The translations under genes and the position numbers were made by a program. The notes beneath the pieces are model-generated. The model worked only from the letters and a program-made list of their open reading frames with translations. It made no database searches and was not told where the DNA came from. A stretch of 64,000 nt of DNA, taken from NCBI RefSeq assembly GCF_900110455.1, contig NZ_FOIS01000003.1, forward strand, positions 637,491-701,490, read 5' to 3'. Positions 45,063 to 48,728 of this stretch are shown here, piece after piece. The first letter of the stretch is position 1. Every line of letters begins with the position of its first letter. This stretch comes from Natrinema salifodinae (GTDB lineage Archaea; Halobacteriota; Halobacteria; Halobacteriales; Natrialbaceae).

Positions 45063-45587
45063 TTACTCGCCGCCGTCGATGCCGTGGCGCTCGTAGAACT
45101 CCTCGGGCGTCTCGTCGACGCGCTCGAAGTCGGTGTCGAAGTAGTGTTCGTGGTGGCGGACGACCTGTTCGACGATCCACTGACTGAACTCCTCGTCGAA
45201 CCGCCACTCGCCGTCCATCTCGGGAATCTCGAACCGATCGTCCGTCGAGAAGGCCGCGTAGACGTGGAAGAATCCGAGGATGACGTCCGCGAAGTCCTGG
45301 GCCTTCTCGGCGCCGCTTTCGCGGCGGTCTTCGAGTTCCGCGGCCCCGTCCTCGGTGAGTTCGAAGTACTTCCGGTCGGGCTCGTCCTCGCGTTCGATCC
45401 GCTCGGCCCATCCCTTCTCTTCGAACTTGTAGAGGATCGGATAGACCGAGCCGTAGGACGGCTCCCAGTGACCGCCGCTGATATCCCTAATCTCCTTGAG
45501 AATCTCGTAACCGTACCGCGGTTTCTCTTCGAGAAGCTCGAGCACGAGATAGGCGATAAGTCCTTTCGGCGGCCCACTTTTCCGCAT
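45063..45587 (-). CDS. PadR family transcription regulator
   Basis: This 174-residue protein starts at ATG 45587. The N-terminal winged helix (GLIAYLVLELLEEKPRYGYEILKEIRDISGGHWEPSYGSVYPILYKFEEKGW, about 9-60) is typical of PadR regulators. The YGYEI core and the WEPSYGSVYPIL segment are conserved. A C-terminal helical part with many aromatic and acidic residues serves dimerisation or ligand binding. The gene is divergent from pitA, a position compatible with controlling it. Its own promoter may be CCCTTTACG, about 30 bases upstream of the start. Confidence 0.9.
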   Translation of the reverse strand: MRKSGPPKGLIAYLVLELLEEKPRYGYEILKEIRDISGGHWEPSYGSVYPILYKFEEKGWAERIEREDEPDRKYFELTEDGAAELEDRRESGAEKAQDFADVILGFFHVYAAFSTDDRFEIPEMDGEWRFDEEFSQWIVEQVVRHHEHYFDTDFERVDETPEEFYERHGIDGGE

Positions 45588-45751: not shown

Positions 45752-47314
45752 ATGGAACGACGGCGACCACCACAGACGGAAGAGGGCTGGTACGTCCTGC
45801 ACGATTTCCGGTCGATCGACTGGGACGCCTGGCGATCGGCGCCCGAGCGCCGGCGGTCGCGGGCGATCGAGGAGGGGATCGACTACCTCGCCGCCGCCGA
45901 GGCCGTCGACGACGCTGACGAGGGCGAGTCGGCGACGTTTGCGGTGCTGGGCCACAAGGCGGACCTGCTCGTGCTCCACCTGCGGCCGACGCTCGCCGAC
46001 ATCGACGCCGTAGAGCGGCGGTTCGAACACACCGCCCTCGCCGAGTTCACCGAGCGGGCCGACTCTTACCTCTCGGTGACGGAGGTCTCGGGGTACATGT
46101 CCCAGGACTACTTCGACGAGGACGCCGAGGTCGAAGACTCCGGGATCGCCCGCTACATCGAGTCGCGGCTCAAACCCGAGATTCCGGACAGCGAGTTCCT
46201 GAGCTTCTACCCGATGAGCAAGCGCCGCGGGCCGGAGGACAACTGGTACGACCTCCCCTTCGACGAGCGGGCCGACCACCTCTCCGCCCACGGCGACATC
46301 GGCCGGGACTACGCCGGCCGCGTCACCCAGATCATCTCCGGCAGCATCGGCCTCGACGACTTCGAGTGGGGCGTGACCCTGTTCGGCGACGACCCGACCG
46401 ACGTGAAGGAACTGCTCTACGAGATGCGCTTCGACCCCTCGAGCTCCCGCTTCGCCGAGTTCGGCCGCTTCCTCTCGGCCAGGCGGTTCCCGCCGGAGGA
46501 CCTCGGCGCGTTCCTCGCTGGCGAGCCGGTTCCCGCCGAAGGGGATCGCGACCACGGCCACGGACATCATCACGGCGAGTCCGGGGGCCACTCCCACGGC
46601 GGTTCCGACGGGGGAGCGGGCGGACATCCGCACGGCGATTCGAGCGGCGGCCACCACGGCGGCTCCGGGTCCGGATCGGGCGGCCACCCCCACGGCGACG
46701 ACGGCGACGAGGACGAAGCCCTCCGCAGCGAACTCGAGGATATGGGCGTCTACGCGGGCCAGCCCCACGGCGAGGACGTCCACGCGGTGGTGCTGTACTC
46801 CGACGCTGACGCCGACGAACTGTTCGAGGAGGTCGACGGTCTCCGCGGGAACTTCGATCACTACGACACCCACGTGAAGACCGCGGTGTACGAACCCGAC
46901 GAGACGACGGCCGACGACGGCGAGGCCGCGGTCATCAGCCTCTGGGAGACCGAACGCGCCGCGAACACGGCCGCCGGCTTCCTAGCAGACCTGCCGGACA
47001 TCGTTCGCCAGGCGGGCGATGACGACGACGATTCCTGGGGCACGATGGGGATGTTCTACACCGTCAAGCCCGACCACCGCTCGGACTTCGTCGGGGTCTT
47101 CGACGACGCCGCCGACCTCTTGGCGGACATGGACGGCCACCGCAAGACCGACCTGCTGGTCAACCGCGAGGACGAGAACGACATGTTCATCGCGAGCCGC
47201 TGGGACTCCCGCGAGGACGCCATGCAGTTCTTCCGCAGCGACGCCTTCTCGGAGGCCGTCGAGTTCGGCCGCGACGTCCTGGCGGACCGGCCGCGACACG
47301 TCTTCCTGGCCTGA
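45752..47314 (+). CDS. pitA: PitA: HemQ/chlorite-dismutase-like domain fused to an ABM domain
   Basis: This is a 520-residue fusion. The N-terminal 250 residues are a chlorite-dismutase/HemQ domain. The coproheme decarboxylase residues are all present: Tyr153 in YPMSKRR, Lys157, His180 (AHGD) as proximal ligand, and Gln193 in VTQIISGS, with DPTDVKELLYEMRFD downstream. A His/Gly-rich linker (about 265-316) follows. Two antibiotic-biosynthesis-monooxygenase (ABM)-like ferredoxin folds lie in about 330-520. This matches PitA of haloarchaea. A TATA-like TTCTTAGC lies about 30 bases before the ATG. Confidence 0.9.
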   Translation: MERRRPPQTEEGWYVLHDFRSIDWDAWRSAPERRRSRAIEEGIDYLAAAEAVDDADEGESATFAVLGHKADLLVLHLRPTLADIDAVERRFEHTALAEFTERADSYLSVTEVSGYMSQDYFDEDAEVEDSGIARYIESRLKPEIPDSEFLSFYPMSKRRGPEDNWYDLPFDERADHLSAHGDIGRDYAGRVTQIISGSIGLDDFEWGVTLFGDDPTDVKELLYEMRFDPSSSRFAEFGRFLSARRFPPEDLGAFLAGEPVPAEGDRDHGHGHHHGESGGHSHGGSDGGAGGHPHGDSSGGHHGGSGSGSGGHPHGDDGDEDEALRSELEDMGVYAGQPHGEDVHAVVLYSDADADELFEEVDGLRGNFDHYDTHVKTAVYEPDETTADDGEAAVISLWETERAANTAAGFLADLPDIVRQAGDDDDDSWGTMGMFYTVKPDHRSDFVGVFDDAADLLADMDGHRKTDLLVNREDENDMFIASRWDSREDAMQFFRSDAFSEAVEFGRDVLADRPRHVFLA

Positions 47315-47402: not shown

Positions 47403-48728
47403 ATGAGTACGACCGACGAGTCGTTGCCCCGACGAGTCTGGACCCGGTATCGCTCGATTCCGATCATCTATCGTATCGCGGTCGCGTTCGTTATCGGAAC
47501 GGCTGTCGGTGCATTCGTCGGCGAACGGGCCGCCGTCCTCAGTCCGCTGGGCGATCTCTTCCTGCGGCTGCTCGAGATGTTGATCGTTCCGTTGATCGTC
47601 TTCACGCTTCTGGGCGGGATGCGCAAGCTAACGCCGTCACGGCTCGGGAAAGTCGGCGGACTGACCGTCGCGCTCTACGCCGCGACGACGACGATCGCGG
47701 CCGCGATCGGCCTCGCCGTCGCGAACCTCTTCGATCCCGGGGCGGGCGTCGAGTTCACGGGCGGCGAGGCACAGGAAGCCGAACCGCCGACCGTCTCCGA
47801 AGTCGTCCTCGGAATCGTCCCCGAGAATCCGCTGGCTGCGATGGTCGAAGGCGACATCCTCGGAACGATCTTCGTCGTCGTCGTCTTCGGCCTGGCCCTG
47901 ACGATGGTCCGCGAATCGACGACCGAGGAACCCGTCGCGGACGCGATCGACGGCTTCTTCGCGTTCGTCGACGCCGGCACCCGGGCCCTGTTCAAGATCG
48001 TCTGGGGCGTCATGGAGTACGGCGTGATCGGCGTCTTCGCGCTGATGGCCGCCTCGATCGGGACCGAGGGGCTGGGCACGATCGTCCAGCTCGGCGCGCT
48101 CGTGGCCGTCATCGCGGTCGGGATTGCGATTCACATGACGGTGACGTACCTCGGCGTGATGACCATCGGGATCCTCGGTCAGTCCCCGCTCGCGTTCCTG
48201 CGGGGCGCGAAAGACGCCATGGTGACGGCGTTTACGATCCGCTCCTCGAGCGGCACGCTACCGGTGACGATCGCCGACGCCGAGGAGAATCTCCGGATTG
48301 ACGAATCGATCTACGGCTTCGGGCTGCCGCTGGGCGCGACGATCAACATGGATGGCGCGGCGATTCGGCAGGCTGTTACGGCAGTATTCGCCGCCAACAT
48401 GGTCGGCGTCTCGCTCGGTCTGGGTGATCAGGTGCTGATCCTCGCGACCGTGATCCTGATCAGCATCGGGACCGCCGGCGTCCCCGGCGCGGGACTGATC
48501 ATGCTCACCGTCATCCTGAACGCCGTCGGCCTCCCGCTGGAGATCGTCGGCTTCGTCGCCGGCGTCGATCCGATCCTCGGTCGGATCGCGACGACGAACA
48601 ACGTCACCGGGGACCTCGCCGTCGCGTCGGTCGTCGGCAAGTGGACCGATGCGATCGACCTCTCGAGCGGAGTCTGGGCCGACGCGCCCGCCCCCAGCGG
48701 CGACGAGAGCGTCACGGCCGACGACTGA
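47403..48728 (+). CDS. dicarboxylate/amino acid:cation symporter (DAACS family)
   Basis: This 441-residue transporter of the GltP/DctA type has about eight membrane helices. The conserved DAACS features are a serine-rich re-entrant loop (SSSGTLPVTIADAEENL, about 282-298), the NMDGAAI motif (about 316-322) and the N-terminal helix region GAFVGERAAVLSPLGDLFLRLLEMLIVPLIVF. It probably carries glutamate, aspartate or a C4-dicarboxylate with Na+. The gene has no visible TATA box within 40 bases; the spacer to pitA is 88 bases. Confidence 0.92.
   Translation: MSTTDESLPRRVWTRYRSIPIIYRIAVAFVIGTAVGAFVGERAAVLSPLGDLFLRLLEMLIVPLIVFTLLGGMRKLTPSRLGKVGGLTVALYAATTTIAAAIGLAVANLFDPGAGVEFTGGEAQEAEPPTVSEVVLGIVPENPLAAMVEGDILGTIFVVVVFGLALTMVRESTTEEPVADAIDGFFAFVDAGTRALFKIVWGVMEYGVIGVFALMAASIGTEGLGTIVQLGALVAVIAVGIAIHMTVTYLGVMTIGILGQSPLAFLRGAKDAMVTAFTIRSSSGTLPVTIADAEENLRIDESIYGFGLPLGATINMDGAAIRQAVTAVFAANMVGVSLGLGDQVLILATVILISIGTAGVPGAGLIMLTVILNAVGLPLEIVGFVAGVDPILGRIATTNNVTGDLAVASVVGKWTDAIDLSSGVWADAPAPSGDESVTADD

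Follow-up and report, generated by a model that had tools for sequence, protein, structure and literature searches.

PitA, a probable aerobic coproheme decarboxylase of haloarchaea, and an apparent gap in the pathway before it in Natrinema salifodinae

Results

The window analysed here, a stretch of 64,000 nucleotides from Natrinema salifodinae, carries on its forward strand (45752–47314) an open reading frame with an ATG start that encodes PitA, a protein of 520 amino acids belonging to a known family. Searches against NCBIfam gave 896.4 bits for NF007124 (PitA family, PRK09565; cut-off 446) and 291.9 bits for NF008913 (hydrogen peroxide-dependent heme synthase; cut-off 253), with the actinobacterial HemQ model NF042928 remaining below its cut-off (43.4 against 235 bits). 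The protein has three parts, all encoded on the forward strand: a coproheme decarboxylase (ChdC/HemQ) domain at approximately residues 8–255 (45773–46516), delimited by alignment to solved HemQ; a His/Gly-rich linker at residues 262–321 (46535–46714); and an ABM-like C-terminal domain (46715–47311), delineated from a structure model, Foldseek and VIA. A Pfam scan to an E-value of 1 returned PF06778 (Chlor_dismutase; residues 48–245, E 4.5e-57) and PF03992 (ABM; residues 434–504, E 8.9e-13) and nothing further, in particular no DNA-binding or signal-transmitter domain. The ABM fusion and His-rich linker recorded in a preliminary description of this locus are thus both present, the linker containing 13 His residues.

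A PadR-family regulator gene encoding 174 amino acids, identified by Pfam, lies on the reverse strand (45063–45587) and is divergent from pitA, as previously described. We compared 120 pitA loci, drawn from two sources that overlap (at least L098/L135, L096/L149 and L089/L166), so that some genomes are represented twice: PadR was found near 77, an M50 peptidase near 92 and a lysyl-tRNA-synthetase-like gene near 77. As PadR falls within an older conserved gene block, its adjacency to pitA provides no evidence of function. Directly downstream on the forward strand (47403–48728) is a gene of the sodium:dicarboxylate symporter family, which adjoins pitA in only eight of the 120 loci (two from the same genome) and is therefore probably unrelated to it.

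The preliminary description had also proposed that PitA retains the full set of HemQ active-site residues, and alignment upheld this in both identity and spacing. Tyr153 (codon 46208–46210), Lys157 (46220–46222), His180 (46289–46291) and Gln193, at the distal position (46328–46330), all on the forward strand, pair with Tyr, Lys, His and Gln at chain positions 144, 148, 171 and 184 of Geobacillus HemQ and 149, 153, 176 and 189 of Listeria HemQ, with distances from the Tyr of 4, 27 and 40 in all three proteins. We take the Tyr153 position to be that of the catalytic Tyr of HemQ and the His180 position to be that of its proximal heme ligand. Across 71 PitA reading frames (70 distinct, as the gene of genome G128 entered twice, as L036 and L097, once in the wrong group), Tyr, His and Gln were invariant and Lys was present in 69, with Arg in the other two (L092 and L095, from one genus).

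An AlphaFold model of PitA (mean pLDDT 76.4, pTM 0.52, linker mostly at very low confidence) placed the N-terminal domain on Geobacillus HemQ with Mn-coproporphyrin (5t2k) with a Z-score of 27.5 and an rmsd of 2.1 Å over 237 residues; Listeria ChdC (6fxj) gave 27.4 and a Thermus homolog (1vdh) 27.0. Neither superposition nor alignment gave any indication that the four residues lie outside one pocket. Z-scores were highest to Firmicute ChdC (27.1–27.5), compared with 20.0–20.6 for actinobacterial ChdC, 20.3 for the putative chlorite dismutase TA0507 and 18.0–19.6 for chlorite dismutases, so in the model PitA resembles ChdC of the Firmicute type specifically.

The name of the Pfam family and the related fold might suggest that PitA is a chlorite dismutase, a reading that we consider barely credible. 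Chlorite dismutases carry Arg at the distal position, where PitA has Gln193; no Arg occurs at that column in any of the 71 PitA reading frames, all of which have Gln there, and in sequence and fold PitA is nearer to Firmicute-type ChdC. The genome that harbours the window does encode a second, divergent member of the chlorite-dismutase family (G000:C3:802728–803303, reverse strand; reading frame L054:9672–10439; E 9.5e-33), with Arg 13 residues past its likely proximal His, as judged by eye—a position at which chlorite dismutases also have Arg—and this too speaks against assigning that activity to PitA. The only NCBIfam match of this second protein was to actinobacterial HemQ, below cut-off (71.3 against 235 bits). 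No comparably divergent second copy was found in the rest of our 145 haloarchaeal genomes; in the other two-copy genomes (G068, G105 and G128) the extra copy is PitA-like.

The structure model divides the C-terminal domain into two ABM-like repeats, not one. Its top Foldseek matches were chains of at least approximately 200 residues titled as monooxygenases or anthrone oxidase (3mcs, 5f9p, 3f44 and PenE), with alignments spanning the entire domain, and heme-bound HmoB was also among the matches. Repeat 2 alone gave good matches to ABM proteins (2omo, Z 14.5), and VIA aligned 114 residues of HmoB (4fvc) at 3.1 Å (Z 9.9). Whole-domain superpositions were poor (rmsd approximately 14–15 Å for 3mcs and 5f9p and 11 Å for HmoB; TM 0.36–0.44), indicating that each ABM-like unit matches on its own and that the relative placement of the units differs. 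Two points count against two repeats: Pfam sees a single ABM stretch and the two-repeat chains superpose poorly as wholes. Three His residues of this domain are invariant in all 71 reading frames: His374 (46871–46873), which opens β2 of repeat 1; His463 (47138–47140), which opens β2 of repeat 2 and corresponds, counting from the C-terminus, to His444 of Haloferax volcanii; and His516 (47297–47299), close to the C-terminus (all on the forward strand). Aligning the two halves of the domain with hhalign brought His374 into register with His463, in a weak match (probability 2.6%, E 0.018, Neff 1.7).

Kosugi et al. (2017; PMC5746218) named His444 as the likely heme ligand after aligning to IsdG a single ABM domain interrupted by an insert of 41 residues, and reported that the Asn and Trp of IsdG-type enzymes are replaced in H. 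volcanii PitA. In a weak alignment of our domain to the heme-degrading monooxygenase 8avh (E 0.0035), the presumed IsdG-type His fell opposite Val503 and His463 fell opposite a Phe. Together with the two-repeat model, this casts doubt on the published ligand assignment, which deserves a new test; the location of heme in the C-terminal fragment, as found by the same authors, is not in question.

For the wider distribution of the pathway, one set of 145 haloarchaeal genomes was profile-searched for every gene, with absence calls depending on assemblies and thresholds. PitA was found in 144. UroD exceeded its cut-off in 33 genomes and ferrochelatase in the identical 33, and the siroheme decarboxylase AhbAB was found in 113 at E < 1e-100, a line at which five UroD-bearing genomes whose AhbAB matches were weak (E around 1e-4 to 1e-3) were scored as negative. 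UroD with ferrochelatase and AhbAB exclude each other almost perfectly: one genome has both, 32 have UroD only, 112 have AhbAB only and none has neither (Fisher p 2.4e-31, without correction for kinship, so that the independence of these related genomes is overstated). By genus, 20 carry UroD, 38 lack it and none is mixed. Among eight UroD-bearing genomes in which the UroD and ferrochelatase stretches were examined, six have a CgoX-type oxidase in the ferrochelatase stretch and two (G128 and G089) showed none there; one such oxidase, when scanned, scored 119.3 against the TIGR00562 cut-off of 97.85. The premise of the preliminary description, that haloarchaea make heme by the siroheme route, is accordingly incomplete, as 32 of the 33 genomes with UroD and ferrochelatase have no AhbAB.

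AhbC is present in five of the 33 UroD-bearing genomes, and in six of them neither AhbC nor AhbD was found, so that PitA is the one coproheme decarboxylase of a known kind seen in them; they offer the simplest case, in which a bacterial-type coproporphyrin route would end with PitA. Since the two supply modules are nearly mutually exclusive and PitA occurs in 144 of 145 genomes, PitA seems to end both routes. A survey of 59 archaea had located hemE and hemH in Thermoplasma and Picrophilus and nowhere else (Storbeck, 2010; PMC3004389), a picture that UroD and ferrochelatase in 33 of 145 haloarchaea now extend. Among the papers returned by literature searches on haloarchaeal heme synthesis, covered mostly as titles and abstract openings, none names the switch between UroD and AhbAB in its title.

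Gene neighbourhoods were compared between 15 pitA loci from UroD-bearing genomes and 25 from siroheme-route genomes (L070–L109). PadR was not found near pitA in eight of the 15 and five of the 25, a comparison in which kinship was not controlled. An aldo/keto-reductase-like gene, recognised by eye, lies near pitA in 12 of the 25 siroheme-route loci and in none of the 15 others (p 0.0011, uncorrected and confounded by kinship), and is a lead only.

AhbC makes coproheme, the substrate of PitA. Called by TIGR04347 over its cut-off, it was present in 88 of the 145 genomes. TIGR04347, a ‘pseudo-SAM/SPASM’ model, was considered as marking a substitute for AhbC and rejected: its hits are the genes that the AhbC model TIGR04546 also finds (below the 650-bit cut-off of that model), and we take these genes to be haloarchaeal AhbC. 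The radical-SAM motif C-x3-C-x2-C is kept in all 32 of the TIGR04347 loci that were read (30 distinct proteins). A second candidate substitute, DUF5778, which precedes AhbB in 17 of 21 loci, was likewise rejected, being present in 143 of the 145 genomes (all except G002 and G021) and in 32 of the 33 with UroD. Around AhbA (21 loci), the commonest neighbour family besides AhbA itself was peptidyl-prolyl isomerase-like, as judged by eye (12 of 21).

Among the 112 genomes with AhbAB and without UroD, 29 lack an intact AhbC and 27 of these also lack AhbD, where the line for AhbD (E < 1e-80) was chosen after the distribution was known and 12 genomes are intermediate. The 29 include G048 and G063, which hold AhbC fragments only, and G048 is counted among the 27 as without AhbC because that class scores AhbC by the TIGR04347 cut-off. 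The fragments themselves (G063:C10:439892–440506, with an internal TAG, and G048:C5:60471–60911) make recent decay of AhbC likely. PitA is retained in 26 of the 27; the exception, G014, has AhbAB and no match to PitA, AhbC or AhbD, which could reflect missing sequence in the assembly or yet another replacement, and we count it against our main reading of PitA. The 27 genomes span 18 genera, seven of which also include genomes with AhbC or AhbD, which suggests that AhbC and AhbD have been lost repeatedly.

Single absences of this kind are already known: nirD and nirH were reported absent from Halorhabdus utahensis, and nirJ1 and nirJ2 from Haloquadratum walsbyi and Sulfolobus acidocaldarius (Storbeck, 2010; PMC3004389), and Natrialba magadii was described as without AhbC and AhbD (Siddaramappa, 2012; PMC3403918). 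Sulfolobus acidocaldarius, which entered our work in a control list only, gave hits to the chlorite-dismutase family and to the HTH model for siroheme decarboxylase; that HTH model also matches bacteria, so the Sulfolobus hit to it could be a cross-match. With ahb-nir genes reported in this organism and no nirJ1 or nirJ2 (PMC3004389), it may share the AhbC gap.

The genome of Natrinema salifodinae is one of the 27. A genome search for Ahb enzymes and coproheme-route genes, as the preliminary description had advised, recovered AhbAB, as two fused genes; AhbC, AhbD, UroD and ferrochelatase were not found by profile search, and the best match to AhbC or AhbD was MoaA. That no known coproheme-forming enzyme was found in this genome counts against our main reading of PitA. 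Retention of AhbAB and PitA alongside these absences implies, in turn, an undiscovered coproheme-forming enzyme for the step before PitA, probably one that tolerates oxygen. Alternatively, one of two radical-SAM proteins (L067 or L068) makes coproheme in this genome, or heme is imported; import is disfavoured by the retention of AhbAB. The genome encodes 12 PF04055 radical-SAM proteins, of which nine beyond MoaA best match other named families (a QueE-like protein falling below its family cut-off), and L067 and L068, the two without a named-family assignment, remain candidates.

Discussion

The role of PitA in aerobic heme synthesis is already published and poses no puzzle. Kosugi et al. (2017; PMC5746218) reported that an H. 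volcanii strain without pitA has a growth defect in air only, which added heme relieves, and that a strain without ahbD grows poorly only when air is excluded. H. volcanii lacks UroD, CgoX and CpfC, as these authors pointed out, and they did not settle how it obtains coproheme in air. The native protein held approximately 0.83 heme per subunit and was reported at 774 kDa, modelled by the authors as two pentamers; after proteolysis, protoheme was recovered with the ABM fragment, and the isolated ChdC domain had none (PMC5746218). According to Pfeiffer & Dyall-Smith (2021; PMC8305020), chdC occurs in nearly all haloarchaea and ahbD in two-thirds, the siroheme route likewise passes through coproheme, and its final step can be carried out by either AhbD or ChdC, so that the conflict seen earlier between a HemQ-type active site and the siroheme route dissolves.

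On sequence, structure models and these published results, PitA is very probably the coproheme decarboxylase that haloarchaea use in air, ending whichever route supplies coproheme. Of the two roles entertained in the preliminary description, fold, residues, family cut-off and the genetics of H. volcanii all favour the coproheme enzyme, and the heme sensor found no support, the Pfam scan showing neither a DNA-binding nor a transmitter domain. The chemistry that we propose is that of ChdC enzymes: the N-terminal domain would bind Fe-coproporphyrin III through His180, and peroxide, with Tyr153 as redox residue, would drive an oxidative decarboxylation that turns two propionates into vinyls and so yields heme b. 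The C-terminal ABM-like domain would not be the decarboxylase and is probably no IsdG-type heme oxygenase; most likely it receives the product heme, in line with the hand-over proposed by Kosugi et al. Coproheme would be supplied by UroD, CgoX and CpfC in some genera and by the siroheme route, from AhbAB onwards, elsewhere, including in Natrinema salifodinae.

Conservation of the C-terminal domain bears on two further readings. Within the three groups of PitA compared, mean pairwise identity was 64.7–70.1% in the C-terminal domain, exceeding that in the ChdC domain (59.7–67.8%), and all 22 PitAs of the UroD-bearing group retain the domain, at 64.7% against 59.7%. This conservation, together with the bound heme of H. 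volcanii PitA and its recovery in the ABM fragment—a distribution that we count against the ChdC reading—would also fit a protein mainly for heme binding, storage or sensing, in which the ChdC-like domain is a relic. We judge that improbable, given that the four ChdC residues vary little or not at all, that loss of pitA impairs growth in air only and is cured by heme (PMC5746218), that signalling and DNA-binding domains are absent by Pfam, and that 26 of the 27 siroheme-route genomes lacking an intact AhbC and AhbD still encode PitA. The same 26 genomes could be read as evidence that PitA is bifunctional, its ABM domain replacing AhbC by converting 12,18-didecarboxysiroheme with oxygen to coproheme, a proposal compatible with our main reading and favoured by the high conservation of the domain and by the presence of a cofactor-independent oxygenase, SnoaB, among ABM-like folds. 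We rate this as equally improbable: the 22 UroD-group PitAs keep the C-terminal domain although their coproheme is expected to be made free of siroheme. That they keep it, at no less than the conservation of the ChdC domain, argues that it serves the product side and not the siroheme side.

Returning to PitA as the terminal decarboxylase, a hybrid route can be proposed for genomes such as that of Natrinema salifodinae, in which AhbAB would convert siroheme to 12,18-didecarboxysiroheme, an undiscovered oxygen-tolerant or oxygen-using enzyme would form coproheme and PitA would complete heme. We regard its chances of being right or wrong as evenly balanced; if true, the same undiscovered step would explain how H. 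volcanii obtains coproheme in air. PitA itself is ordinary and the missing step before it is the interesting part: the question left by Kosugi et al. is sharpened to a testable gap, framed by a near-perfect switch of routes with PitA as their common end.

Comparison with known systems

The closest described counterpart, H. volcanii PitA (ChdC, HVO_1871), shares with the protein of the window its three-part architecture and family (NF007124). The pairing of His463 with H. volcanii His444 relies on residue counts back from the C-terminal end (520 residues against 501), and we read as two repeats what was described in that species as one ABM domain with an insert. The two organisms also differ in that AhbC and AhbD are reported in H. 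volcanii, whereas neither was found in the genome studied here. AhbD, a radical SAM heme synthase, performs the same reaction as PitA, coproheme to heme b, although it belongs to an unrelated protein family and uses anaerobic chemistry. HmoB and other tandem-ABM chains (4fvc, 4jou, 3mcs and 5f9p) have two ABM-like units per chain, as in PitA, and the titles of the HmoB entries describe heme complexes; the units of these chains are, however, placed differently from those of PitA. The solved ChdC proteins of Geobacillus (5t2k) and Listeria (6fxj) share the N-terminal fold, all four named residues and 46% and 41% identity, respectively, over aligned residues; unlike PitA, these chains (238 and 251 residues) have neither linker nor ABM domain.
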